A program made the position numbers and the translations under genes. Below are positions 7,922 through 12,055 of a stretch of 32,793 nt of DNA, in pieces (position 1 is the first letter of the stretch; each line of letters begins with the position of its first letter). The notes below the pieces were generated by a model. The model made no database searches. It was not told the DNA's origin and worked only from the letters and a program-made list of their open reading frames with translations. The stretch comes from Promethearchaeota archaeon (GTDB lineage Archaea > Asgardarchaeota > Lokiarchaeia > Sigyniarchaeales > Promethearchaeaceae): the NCBI GenBank assembly GCA_004524545.1, contig SDNX01000019.1, positions 1-32,793 of the forward strand, written 5' to 3'.

Positions 7922-7958
7922 GATGAATAAACTGTCAAAGGATGAATAAAAACTGTCA
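7922..7958 (+). repeat. near-perfect tandem repeat (gatgaataaactgtca / gatgaataaaaactgtca) at the 5' end of porGD
   Basis: Read directly: copy 1 at 7922-7937, copy 2 at 7941-7958, differing only by 2 extra A residues. Confidence 0.85.
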
Positions 7959-8885
7959 GATTATGTAATTAGCATAAGATTTCACGCACGTGGTGGACAA
8001 GGCGGTGTTACAGCCTCCCAATTGTGCGTTGACTCTTTTGCAGGATTTGGAGTAAACCAACCTCGGTTTGGTGCCGAAAGAATGGGTTCTCCTACCGAAT
8101 CATATGCGCGTTTGGGAAAAAATAAGAATTTGATTAGAACAAATACGCAAGTATACACACCCAATTATGTAGGGGTGCTGGACGATACTTTATTGGAAGA
8201 TATTGATGTTGCTGCTGGTATGACCCCCGGAGGGTGGCTGATTGTCAACACTGATATGTCATTCGATGAAATCAAATCTAAGATTAGCCGAGATGACATC
8301 AATCTTGCGAAATTAGATGCAACTGGTCTTGCACTTGAAGTTTTAGGAAGAAATATTACCAACACGGTCATTTTAGGGGCTCTAGTAAAAGTATCAGGAA
8401 TTTTCACGTTAGACCAATTAAAGGATGCGATTTTTAAAACCTTTAAAGCAAGTATCGCTGAAAAAAATGCAAGGGTAGTAGAACGTGCCTTCGAAAAAAC
8501 AGAGATCCTTGATATGGGTTTTAAATTGGATTATGGTGCAGATACCAAAAAACCTTGGAGTCACACTGGATTAGGCAATCCAGGATATAAGGAACGTGAC
8601 CTCGCAGGCGTATGGTACACTCCCGGTGGTTCCGAAGTAGTAAAAACTGGTTCTTGGGGTGTGTCTGTTGCACAGTGGAATAAAGAACTTTGCATCAATT
8701 GTCAAAAATGTTTTATGGTATGTCCAGATTTAGCCATTATCCGAGAATTAGGAGAAGATGGAGAGTATCACATGGCTGGAGTAGACGAATATCATTGTAA
8801 GGGTTGCATGAACTGTGTGTTAATCTGTCCCAAGAAAGCATTAACTGAAAAAATGAAGAAAGAACCCACAGGAGGTAAAAAATAA
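7953..8885 (+). CDS. porG-porD fusion: pyruvate (2-oxoacid):ferredoxin oxidoreductase, fused gamma and delta (4Fe-4S) subunits
   Basis: Conserved gamma motif IRFHARGGQGGVTASQLC precedes the ORF-track TTG start at 8022; GAERMGSPTESYARL; C-terminal two 4Fe-4S motifs CINCQKCFMVCP and CKGCMNCVLICP; exact start uncertain (see findings). Confidence 0.85.
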   Translation: MSDYVISIRFHARGGQGGVTASQLCVDSFAGFGVNQPRFGAERMGSPTESYARLGKNKNLIRTNTQVYTPNYVGVLDDTLLEDIDVAAGMTPGGWLIVNTDMSFDEIKSKISRDDINLAKLDATGLALEVLGRNITNTVILGALVKVSGIFTLDQLKDAIFKTFKASIAEKNARVVERAFEKTEILDMGFKLDYGADTKKPWSHTGLGNPGYKERDLAGVWYTPGGSEVVKTGSWGVSVAQWNKELCINCQKCFMVCPDLAIIRELGEDGEYHMAGVDEYHCKGCMNCVLICPKKALTEKMKKEPTGGKK

Positions 8886-10102
8886 TGTCTGTAGAACCAA
8901 TGAGCCCATTCTTTAGAGAAATAACTGAGAGAAAACAATTAAACATGACGGGAAATTACGCAGTTGCAGGTGCCGTATCACAAACCGATCCTGATGTAAT
9001 TTGTGCTTTCCCAATTACCCCCCAGACACAATCTGTTGAGGGATTAAGCGATGTGGTTAATCATGGATTCCTTAAATCAGCATTTGTCAATGTCGAATCC
9101 GAATTAGCAGCAATATCATATAGTACAGCTGCTTGTGCTGCAGGGGCACGGACTTTTACAGCAACTGCAAGTCAAGGGTATCTGTTAATGTGTGAAGGAT
9201 TACCTATGCCTGTGGGATGGAGATTACCCTTAACGATGTTAATATCCGCTCGTGCATTCAACTCTCCGAATTTGAGCATCTGGAACTCGTGGGAATATAC
9301 ACTCATGGACTTTGGATGGAATGCGATAGTTTCAGAAAACGTACAAGAAACTTATGATGCGGCGATTATGGCATCGAAAATCGCAGAAGATTCATTGTTT
9401 CCAACGATGTTCGTGCATGATGGATTTATCATTTCACATTCAGCACAGAATTTCGAAGCATTAACTCATGCTGAGGTAATGAAATTTACTCCTAAAAAAA
9501 ATCGTCATATATTCAGCCCCGATAATCCTGGAACGTGGGGGAGCATTGTTACTCCAACATTTTTCATGGAAGGAAGAAGGGGGTTAGACAAAGCAAAAGA
9601 GGGCGTTTTAGGAATAATGAGTAAGACCTACAAAGAGTATGGAAAATTATCCGGAAGGCATTATGACCATGTAGAAGGATTCAATCTAGATGCTCCTTCA
9701 AAAACTGCGTTTATTACGATGGGATCAATGTGTGGAAACATCATCAGTTGGATGGAAGATAACAAGGATTATGGATTGATTAAGATCCGAACTTGGAGGC
9801 CCTTCCCTTATGAAGAACTCCAAAAGATGATCGAGAAACATAACATCGAGAAACTCATCGTATTAGAGAAGGATGATTCCCTAAACAATATTTTACCTCC
9901 ATTAGCAACCGCTATTGCTACTGCAACATACCCATTAGGTACGATACTCCGAGCTTTCGTTGTTGGATTGGGTGGAAGAGATGTTACCAAAGATGAATTT
10001 AATGCAGCAGCAAAGAAAATGGAAAAAGTCAAAGATATGAAAGGACGTCTCTATTATTACCTTGGCGTTCGAGAAACAAAAGACAAACTGGAGGAAATCT
10101 AA
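8885..10102 (+). CDS. porA: pyruvate:ferredoxin oxidoreductase alpha subunit
   Basis: 405 aa; GNYAVAGAVSQTDPDVICAFPITPQTQSVEGLSD, ESELAAISYSTAACAAGARTFTATASQG; TAATG overlap with upstream porGD. Confidence 0.92.
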   Translation: MSVEPMSPFFREITERKQLNMTGNYAVAGAVSQTDPDVICAFPITPQTQSVEGLSDVVNHGFLKSAFVNVESELAAISYSTAACAAGARTFTATASQGYLLMCEGLPMPVGWRLPLTMLISARAFNSPNLSIWNSWEYTLMDFGWNAIVSENVQETYDAAIMASKIAEDSLFPTMFVHDGFIISHSAQNFEALTHAEVMKFTPKKNRHIFSPDNPGTWGSIVTPTFFMEGRRGLDKAKEGVLGIMSKTYKEYGKLSGRHYDHVEGFNLDAPSKTAFITMGSMCGNIISWMEDNKDYGLIKIRTWRPFPYEELQKMIEKHNIEKLIVLEKDDSLNNILPPLATAIATATYPLGTILRAFVVGLGGRDVTKDEFNAAAKKMEKVKDMKGRLYYYLGVRETKDKLEEI

Positions 10103-11194
10103 ATGGCAGTCAAATCAAATATCATTGATGTAAATGATTTATTAAAAAGGCAAGAGCGCCACACTGTCTTATATTTCAACTATGATAATGAGGCATTCAT
10201 GAATACGGGGATCCAAGAAAGTGGTTCTACACCTTTTGCATGTTCCACAACAACAGGACCTGGTGGAGAAGAAATTAAAGGGAAGGTGGGTGTAAAACAA
10301 GACATCTTAAACCCTATGGCATTTCTGGGAACAAAGTCATCCTTCTTTGCTTCGGCAAGTTTAGCCTATCCTTTGGATTTCATGGGAAAAGTTATTGAAG
10401 CGATGAAAACCCCTGGTGGAGGATTTATTCAATCATTCTCTCCTTGTCCACGGGGTTGGAGATCTGATGCTCATGATTCTTTTAAGATCGCAAAATTAGC
10501 AACGGATTCTGGGTATTATCCATTAATAACCATTCGTGTCAAAGATGGAGTCCCAAAATGGAGTTATTCTCGACCACTTAAATTCAATCGAGAAAAATTC
10601 CTAGAATTTATTAAAACCATGGGGAAATACAACCATTTATTCAAACCCAAATTTGAAGAGGATTTGATTAATGAGCTGATTCAACAAACTGAAGCAAGAT
10701 TAGGAAATATGGTTGCTCTTGTAGACAATTTGGGAGCAGAAGCACCTATGGATGTCTATAAAATGAACGTGAAGCAGTTTGCACCTCAGACTCATTTAGC
10801 TCCTGGATATGGGTTGTGTCCTGGATGTGGTGCGGGATCCATTGTACATCTTTTGACTCTTGCTGCAACGCAAGTCGCAAAAAACAATATCTTGTATGTA
10901 AATAACACTTGTTGTTTGGAAGTTGCTACCAGTAAGGATGATCTAACCTCATGGAAATCTTCATGGATGCATCATTTGTTCGAATCAGGAGCTACAGTGG
11001 CAGATGCAGTTGCAACTACCTATAGGATGCTCCGATATAAAGGAATCTGGAAGAAAGAAATACCATATGTAATCCACCTTGCTGGTGATGGATCTACTTA
11101 CGATATCGGATACCAATTCTTAAAATCAGCTATTGTGAGGTCATCCTCATTTACCATACAAAATAGATATTGCTCAGATGATTACTGCGAGTAA
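10103..11194 (+). CDS. porB: pyruvate:ferredoxin oxidoreductase beta subunit, apparently circularly permuted
   Basis: C-terminal-half motifs (YDNEAFMNTGIQESGSTPFACSTTTGPGG, PCPRGW) come first, N-terminal-half motifs (LCPGCGAGS, NNTCCLEVAT, GDGSTYDIG) come last; GGAGG 8 nt upstream of the ATG. Confidence 0.9.
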   Translation: MAVKSNIIDVNDLLKRQERHTVLYFNYDNEAFMNTGIQESGSTPFACSTTTGPGGEEIKGKVGVKQDILNPMAFLGTKSSFFASASLAYPLDFMGKVIEAMKTPGGGFIQSFSPCPRGWRSDAHDSFKIAKLATDSGYYPLITIRVKDGVPKWSYSRPLKFNREKFLEFIKTMGKYNHLFKPKFEEDLINELIQQTEARLGNMVALVDNLGAEAPMDVYKMNVKQFAPQTHLAPGYGLCPGCGAGSIVHLLTLAATQVAKNNILYVNNTCCLEVATSKDDLTSWKSSWMHHLFESGATVADAVATTYRMLRYKGIWKKEIPYVIHLAGDGSTYDIGYQFLKSAIVRSSSFTIQNRYCSDDYCE

Positions 11195-11203
11195 TTTCTT
11201 TTT

Positions 11204-12055
11204 CTATATATATTTTTGCCAAGCAAAGAAATTGATGTTATGTTCTGATAAAATACGATTAATCTCATTTAAGATATCAGGATTAAACTCCCAGATTCTT
11301 TTATTACTGAAGGATGCACATCTAATGTTTTTCAAATTCAGATTTTTTTGCAATAAATATCCGTAAAACGCTACTTGTGGGACGGAGGGCATAAAATTAT
11401 TTTCAGGTTTATAGTCAAGTATGAATAATACATCATCTACAAAACGAAGTAAATCAATATGACCGGTGACTACCTCAGGAGTAATGGGGGGATTTCCCCA
11501 AATAGGAATTTCCATTGCCATTGCATGGGGATCTTTTTCTAAAATCCGAGTTTGGATGTCATTGTGAGATGGTTTTGGTTTTTGTTGGTTCACATGCTCT
11601 GCGAATAAGTGTTTTGCAATTTTCGTCAAGGGGTGGATACTGAGAGTTTCTTGAATGTGACCTTCCCGTATCAAAGATTTTCCAATTTCTGCCACAATTC
11701 CTCGTTTTAAACGATTCAAACGAAATTGAGATATTCGCTGTACAGACCTGTCATTAAAAAATTCCTTTGGATAATGTCCTTGTGCAATAGTGGATAAGTA
11801 TTTATACAAAACTTGTGTTTTTGTGTTTTGACTCAAAGCACTATATCGATGTCTCACCCATTTAAAGGTGTACCCTATGCCTTGATGAACCATCTCTTTT
11901 TCAATTATTTTTTTTTGGGATTCTCCAAAACAATGAATAACTACATCCCAATCGAATCCGTACTGTGTACAAATTTGCATTCGAGTTAGTCCGTTTTCCT
12001 TTGCGTCTAGAATTGTTTGTTTAATTTCTTGTGGAATGGATTCGAACGGATTCAT
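11204..12055 (-). CDS. PD-(D/E)XK nuclease-like protein
   Basis: 283 aa; MAMEIPIWGNPPITPEVVTGHIDLLRFVDDVLFILDYKPEN = E...GxxDLL...DYK signature; N-terminal HTH-like TRMQICTQYGFDWDVVIHCFG. Confidence 0.65.
   Translation of the reverse strand: MNPFESIPQEIKQTILDAKENGLTRMQICTQYGFDWDVVIHCFGESQKKIIEKEMVHQGIGYTFKWVRHRYSALSQNTKTQVLYKYLSTIAQGHYPKEFFNDRSVQRISQFRLNRLKRGIVAEIGKSLIREGHIQETLSIHPLTKIAKHLFAEHVNQQKPKPSHNDIQTRILEKDPHAMAMEIPIWGNPPITPEVVTGHIDLLRFVDDVLFILDYKPENNFMPSVPQVAFYGYLLQKNLNLKNIRCASFSNKRIWEFNPDILNEINRILSEHNINFFAWQKYI

Follow-up and report, generated by a model that had tools for sequence, protein, structure and literature searches.

A circularly permuted, probably functional PorB with a split ThDP-binding motif in a 2-oxoacid:ferredoxin oxidoreductase operon of Lokiarchaeia

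The window, i.e. the whole stretch of DNA analysed here, is a contig of 32,793 nucleotides from a Promethearchaeota archaeon of the class Lokiarchaeia. It carries an operon in the order porGD-porA-porB, in which the beta-subunit gene porB is accompanied by the genes of the alpha, gamma and delta subunits (Table 1). The porA stop codon occupies positions 10100–10102 and the porB ATG follows at 10103, with a GGAGG upstream at 10090–10094. This is the arrangement given by the original prediction, which had also been right about the reading frame with its translation and about where Cys115 (10445), Cys239 and Cys242 (10817 and 10826), Cys270 and Cys271 (10910–10915) and GDG (11084–11092) lie. The gene order was kept in relatives wherever the contig was long enough, except at loci where an element was apparently inserted inside porB (L085/L130 and L088). 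Since the TTG at 8022 that the ORF finder chose as the start of porGD would cut off a conserved N-terminal ISIRFHARGGQGG, the true start is probably the CTG at 7953; at the aligned position, L034 has CTG and L035 has TTG. A frameshift as the cause of the missing porG N-terminus was rejected in favor of this likely CTG start. On the minus strand, 10 bp behind porB, lies a convergent gene (11204–12055) with weak similarity to PD-(D/E)XK nucleases, and ORFs resembling it are found behind porB in L034 and, apparently, L035.

Table 1. Genes of the operon and parts of the permuted PorB, with positions in the window
Feature	Position	Strand	Basis
Permuted porB, 363 aa	10103..11194	+	Swapped profile and structure-sequence matches
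porGD, fused gamma and delta subunit, probably from CTG 7953	7953..8885	+	POR and Fer4 Pfam matches
porA, alpha subunit with POR_N and PFOR_II domains	8885..10102	+	Equivalents of T31/E64/R114 of D. africanus PFOR kept
GGAGG ribosome-binding site of porB	10090..10094	+	Sequence
New N-terminal cap, residues 1–21	10103..10165	+	Conserved in relatives
Canonical C-terminal part of PorB, residues 22–210	10166..10732	+	Profile/PDB chain matches
Linker from old C-terminus to old N-terminus, about residues 211–226	10733..10780	+	Gap between two profile domains; beta strand in model
Canonical N-terminal part of PorB, residues 227–347	10781..11143	+	Profile/PDB chain matches
New C-terminal tail, residues 348–363	11144..11191	+	
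N29 of YDNEAF, putative Mg2+/ThDP-ligand half of motif	10187..10189	+	Invariant; aligns with DTEVYSNTG in 7plm/1b0p
N34 of NTG, equivalent of catalytic Asn	10202..10204	+	Invariant; aligned
Cys115, putative fourth ligand of proximal [4Fe-4S] cluster	10445..10447	+	Invariant; aligned
Cys239 and Cys242 (CPGC), putative cluster ligands	10817..10828	+	Invariant; aligned
Cys271, putative cluster ligand	10913..10915	+	Invariant; Cys270 not
GDG, residues 328–330, pyrophosphate/Mg half of ThDP motif, near C-terminus	11084..11092	+	Alignment

In PorB profiles and in PFOR beta structures, the C-terminal part is matched by residues 22–205 of the porB product and the N-terminal part by residues 226–348. 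Compared separately with the NCBIfam PorB profile (NF008819), the two parts of the chain matched its opposite halves in swapped order: residues 19–201 fell on profile positions 118–297 (9.6e-39 when taken alone), and the C-terminal part of the ORF fell on positions 4–119 (2.8e-19 when taken alone). The beta subunit of the Methanosarcina PFOR (PDB 9bt4_C) was matched as two swapped domains, and that of the Moorella oxalate oxidoreductase (5c4i_C) as two stretches swapped in the same way. We also built a profile of canonical Asgard beta subunits from 30 rows, a few of them duplicated, with which the permuted proteins formed two domains; in the relative L040, profile positions 127–315 lay on residues 16–205 and positions 13–135 on residues 227–352. 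PorB homology thus extends over the entire chain, both parts matching PorB profiles and 9bt4_C significantly and in swapped order. Instead of the canonical order CxxC, CxEV, GDG...DNE/NTG, C..GW, the motifs run DNE/NTG, C..GW, CxxC, CxEV, GDG, in a single intact chain, which is the layout of a natural circular permutant. The profiles, 9bt4_C and the canonical Asgard profile all agree with the proposal from which this work started, namely that the halves are swapped and that the cut lies inside the ThDP motif.

The cut falls within the loop that leads from the helix behind GDG to the strand bearing the second Mg/ThDP ligand. Around this point the canonical consensus reads GDGGTYDIGLQALSGALER to the left and GHDFVYICYDNEAYMNTG to the right. 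The left part ends the permuted chain; the right part, from the strand onward, starts it. At the other junction, the short linker connects what was the C-terminal helix to the former N-terminus. For the N-terminal cap and the C-terminal tail, no homology to canonical PorB was detectable in a profile scan. The protein as a whole reached an NCBIfam score of 198 bits against a cut-off of 405 bits, and had no significant Pfam match. Pathway reconstructions may therefore miss the catalytic beta subunit, and the permuted gene is an annotation blind spot.

We next consider the residues expected to hold the cofactors. In an alignment of 44 homologues, the other members of which are 46–87% identical to the PorB of the window, C115, C239, C242, C271, D329, N29 and N34 were invariant. 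The four cysteines align with the ligands of the proximal [4Fe-4S] cluster of PFOR: we take C115 to be the equivalent of Cys1071 in the D. africanus enzyme, C239 and C242 of Cys812 and Cys815, and C271 of Cys840. The residues predicted to bind ThDP and Mg, namely the Asp of GDG, the residue of the DxE position and the Asn of NTG, are represented by D329, N29 and N34, which presumably correspond to residue 963, Thr991 and the catalytic Asn996. Retention of all four cluster cysteines and both ThDP elements, as first suggested, is therefore borne out by invariance and alignment to PFOR. Two assignments were refined. The pair Cys270/271 lies where it had been placed, and the ligand in it would be Cys271, as Cys270 is not invariant. 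The N half of the ThDP motif is indeed at the N-terminal end, yet the Asn that would bind Mg is N29 of YDNEAF rather than the Asn of NTG, N34, which aligns with the catalytic Asn.

An AlphaFold2 model of PorB, computed from the 44-sequence alignment, was of moderate confidence, with a mean pLDDT of 73 and a pTM of 0.83, and with pLDDT below 50 around the cofactor loops. When the model was searched with Foldseek, all 23 significant matches were chains of PFOR or oxalate oxidoreductase, the best being 9bt4_C. The TM-scores against 9bt4_C were low (0.39–0.47), as expected, since the search is sequential, i.e. not permutation-aware. The ORF very probably encodes a functional, naturally circularly permuted PorB of a 2-oxoacid:ferredoxin oxidoreductase, most likely acting on pyruvate, together with PorGD and PorA from the same operon. 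In the mechanism that we propose, the permuted chain would refold to the ordinary PorB fold, such that GDG from the C-terminal end meets DNE...NTG from the N-terminal end and Mg-ThDP is bound, and Cys115, Cys239, Cys242 and Cys271 would hold the proximal [4Fe-4S] cluster. By analogy with the family, PorA would complete the active site and the 2-oxoacid would be decarboxylated on ThDP. From the PorB cluster, electrons would be handed on to the two clusters of PorD and then to ferredoxin; the acyl group would be taken up by CoA.

The permuted porB was found full-length and collinear, directly behind porGD-porA, in 71 of 86 Lokiarchaeia genomes (Loki-, Hel- and Sigynarchaeota), a count that includes one fragment and several genes cut at contig ends. 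Among the genomes carrying it are the single-contig genomes G004, G006 and G007 and the chromosome CP070831.1. In the remaining 15 Lokiarchaeia genomes, some of them >90% complete, the permuted gene was not matched; in the other 146 Asgard genomes no permuted porB was found, only the canonical half-match. These data bear on whether the order could stem from a chimeric assembly or from a local rearrangement that took place recently in a single metagenome-assembled genome (MAG). Such a suspicion could be raised by the source of the window, a 32.8-kb contig from a MAG that comprises 154 contigs and is 76% complete. However, the same permutation occurs at 46–87% identity in dozens of independent assemblies, single-contig ones among them, and the permuted proteins form a single ancient clade. 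An assembly chimera, which had been named as the finding that could overturn the prediction, was thus rejected, and we regard the chance of a chimera or recent rearrangement as negligible. One contig, L136 (G019:C281), has two porB genes that both group with those of G120, a genome of another family outside the class; it is probably mis-binned.

In close pairs of permuted porB genes, dN/dS was about 0.05–0.08. Between the window and its nearest relative, pN was 0.086 and pS 0.756, the latter near saturation, and both halves of the gene behaved alike; for the N-terminal residues 1–20, pN was 0.063 and pS 0.83. The permuted porB is under strong purifying selection. A gene in decay, or a non-catalytic fusion of fragments that persists as a pseudogene or regulatory relic, might be considered in view of the 3'-end duplicates and disrupted copies seen in some relatives. 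Against this stand the intact ORF, the invariant cofactor residues, the low dN/dS and the conserved operon with its ribosome-binding site. We therefore rejected the pseudogene interpretation and consider decay or loss of catalysis highly improbable. Purifying selection, the conserved operon, the single clade, the conservation across Lokiarchaeia and the swapped profiles instead support what had been surmised at the outset, a functional permuted gene and not debris.

To place the permuted proteins in a phylogeny, their halves were put back in canonical order, and a tree of 15 permuted and 27 canonical sequences was computed. The permuted proteins, with records of Helarchaeota, Sigynarchaeota and Lokiarchaeota among them, formed one clade with 100/100 support. 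Given this clade, the presence in 71 of 86 genomes and the dN/dS of about 0.05–0.08, the permutation arose once, in the Lokiarchaeia stem before the split of the Loki, Hel and Sigyn lineages, and has been inherited vertically as a probably functional permutant. The closest canonical proteins found are PorBs of other Asgard archaea, with roughly 38–42% identity over each half. Most simply, an ordinary PorB gave way to the permuted one in the stem of the Lokiarchaeia; we infer this replacement only tentatively, since the tree poorly resolves where the permuted branch belongs among the canonical types. As for the route, a tandem duplication of porB followed by loss of the outer halves had been suggested. 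If so, the cap and the tail might retain traces of the trimmed duplicate. When they were scanned against the canonical continuation by profile, no duplication remnants were found: no in-register offset did better than about rank 26 among roughly 310 positions, while known flanking segments ranked first. Origin by duplication and trimming is possible but unsupported, since neither cap nor tail carries a trace of such sequence.

Canonical porB genes occur elsewhere in the window's genome, in POR operons other than that of the permuted locus. They lie on G000:C25 (L144) and G000:C48 (L145), each in a POR-type operon of four genes whose beta subunit is canonical. Of the possible substrates, pyruvate is the most likely for the permuted enzyme, a reasonably probable assignment that draws on PorA, which has the equivalents of Thr31, Glu64 and Arg114 and lacks the Arg31 of oxalate oxidoreductase. 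Oxalate oxidoreductase itself was rejected on this ground, the window PorA having PITP where 5c4i_A has PIRP. Work on a non-pyruvate substrate (branched-chain, phenylglyoxylate-like, oxalate-like or another short 2-oxoacid) is a less likely option, for which several observations speak. PorA and PorGD are divergent, the identity to PorA of canonical Asgard operons being about 35%; the fusion of gamma and delta is shared with oxalate oxidoreductase; and the genome holds several further POR alpha genes. In addition, the PorA loop after R114, NSWEYTLMD, is unusual and differs from the loop of DHQD type in pyruvate enzymes, which leaves room for a different 2-oxoacid. On the other hand, the best profiles are those of pyruvate synthase PorA and PorB, and the Thr31 equivalent is present where the oxalate enzyme chain has Arg. 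Moreover, the two canonical Lokiarchaeia beta subunits, sampled in five genomes, fall in a separate group of the tree, and at least one of them reaches the cut-off for 3-methyl-2-oxobutanoate dehydrogenase beta. The permuted operon is therefore the best candidate for the pyruvate enzyme.

Among known systems, the PFOR beta of Methanosarcina acetivorans (9bt4_C) is the best match in sequence and fold, with both halves, the cluster cysteines, GDG and DNEAYMNTG aligning; unlike the permuted PorB, it has the canonical order with a contiguous GDG...DNE...NTG, and lacks the N-terminal cap and the linker. Second best over both halves is the oxalate oxidoreductase beta of Moorella thermoacetica (5c4i_C). 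This enzyme resembles that of the window in having gamma and delta fused in one chain (OxalOxreddelta profile), but its beta is in canonical order and its PorA-type subunit reads YPIRPYT (Arg31) where the window has FPITPQT. The most similar unpermuted relatives found are canonical PorBs of other Asgard archaea (e.g. L138, L139 and L142), for which gamma and delta are separate genes in the loci examined. Domain order varies among ThDP enzymes, in which PYR and PP domains may be swapped or placed on separate chains, and the GDG...N motif is their contiguous signature. Such shuffling also rearranges modules, but it moves whole domains and leaves GDG...N contiguous, whereas the permuted PorB is cut inside the PP domain and inside the motif. 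No description of the permuted PorB was found in the searched literature on circular permutation in connection with PFOR, ThDP or Asgard archaea, in agreement with the original prediction. This is probably the first case of natural circular permutation within a ThDP-binding PP domain, with GDG...N split to opposite chain ends; it would have been fixed once in the Lokiarchaeia stem, where its product would be the main pyruvate:ferredoxin oxidoreductase beta, the part that canonical PorB plays in other Asgard archaea. An enzyme that works with its motif split would show that the PP domain can be permuted even at its catalytic centre. The permuted PorB offers a clean system for testing how proteins of core metabolism fold and evolve, and it is a clade marker for Lokiarchaeia, archaea near the ancestry of eukaryotes.

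The permuted porB of the window has none of the intron-like inserts, element insertions or displaced 3' copies found in relatives. In four loci (L093:4088-4140, L075:3019-3070, L085:4091-4140 and L090:4082-4140) the gene is interrupted at codons 36–39 by 30–31 nt, the excision of which restores the conserved NTG-(I/V/L)QESG. An intron hairpin is common to L093, L075 and L085, two of which also have the exon-intron helix. The L090 insert folds into a near-textbook bulge-helix-bulge (BHB), in which the central helix has 4 bp, the 5' bulge 3 nt and the 3' loop 4 nt. In L093, excision of 31 nt restores the frame (AATACTGGA^...^ATTCAAG), while excision of 30 nt does not. The inserts are possibly archaeal BHB-like mRNA introns in Asgard archaea, and would offer a test bed for Asgard mRNA splicing. 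In archaea, splicing of pre-mRNA was first discovered for the cbf5 gene of crenarchaea (PMC2738675).

Inserts of this kind, together with the permuted tRNA genes that occur in archaea (PMC3218864), raise the idea that canonical order is restored after transcription, by a circular RNA through BHB splicing or by protein splicing. We find this very hard to credit, because the frame runs from a start backed by a ribosome-binding site via a conserved linker to the stop and the N-terminal cap is itself constrained; an unsystematic look at the gene ends noticed no splice motif. A protein translated in permuted order remains our preferred reading.

Mobile cassettes target both ends of porB in some relatives. 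In the MAG E44_bin85, only the first 35 codons of porB follow porGDA (L094:3989-4096), and a complete porB with its own 5' end lies on another contig without porA (L088:3875-5074). It seems that an element was inserted at codon 35, where the intron-like inserts also lie, and brought with it a substitute for these 35 codons. L085 and L088 encode large proteins upstream that are related to each other, sharing zinc-binding repeats and a QHY-containing region that, at a guess from the motif, recalls Vsr-type homing nucleases. At the other end of the gene, displaced copies of the porB 3' end, about 30–115 codons long, were present in L052, L058, L070, L087, L131, L132 and L135. They lie roughly 0.7–2.5 kb behind the gene, after inserted cargo such as genes for a PIN domain, an FrhB-like protein and others. 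Many contigs break in the permuted porB, and the displaced copies suggest that its 3' end is an integration hot spot.
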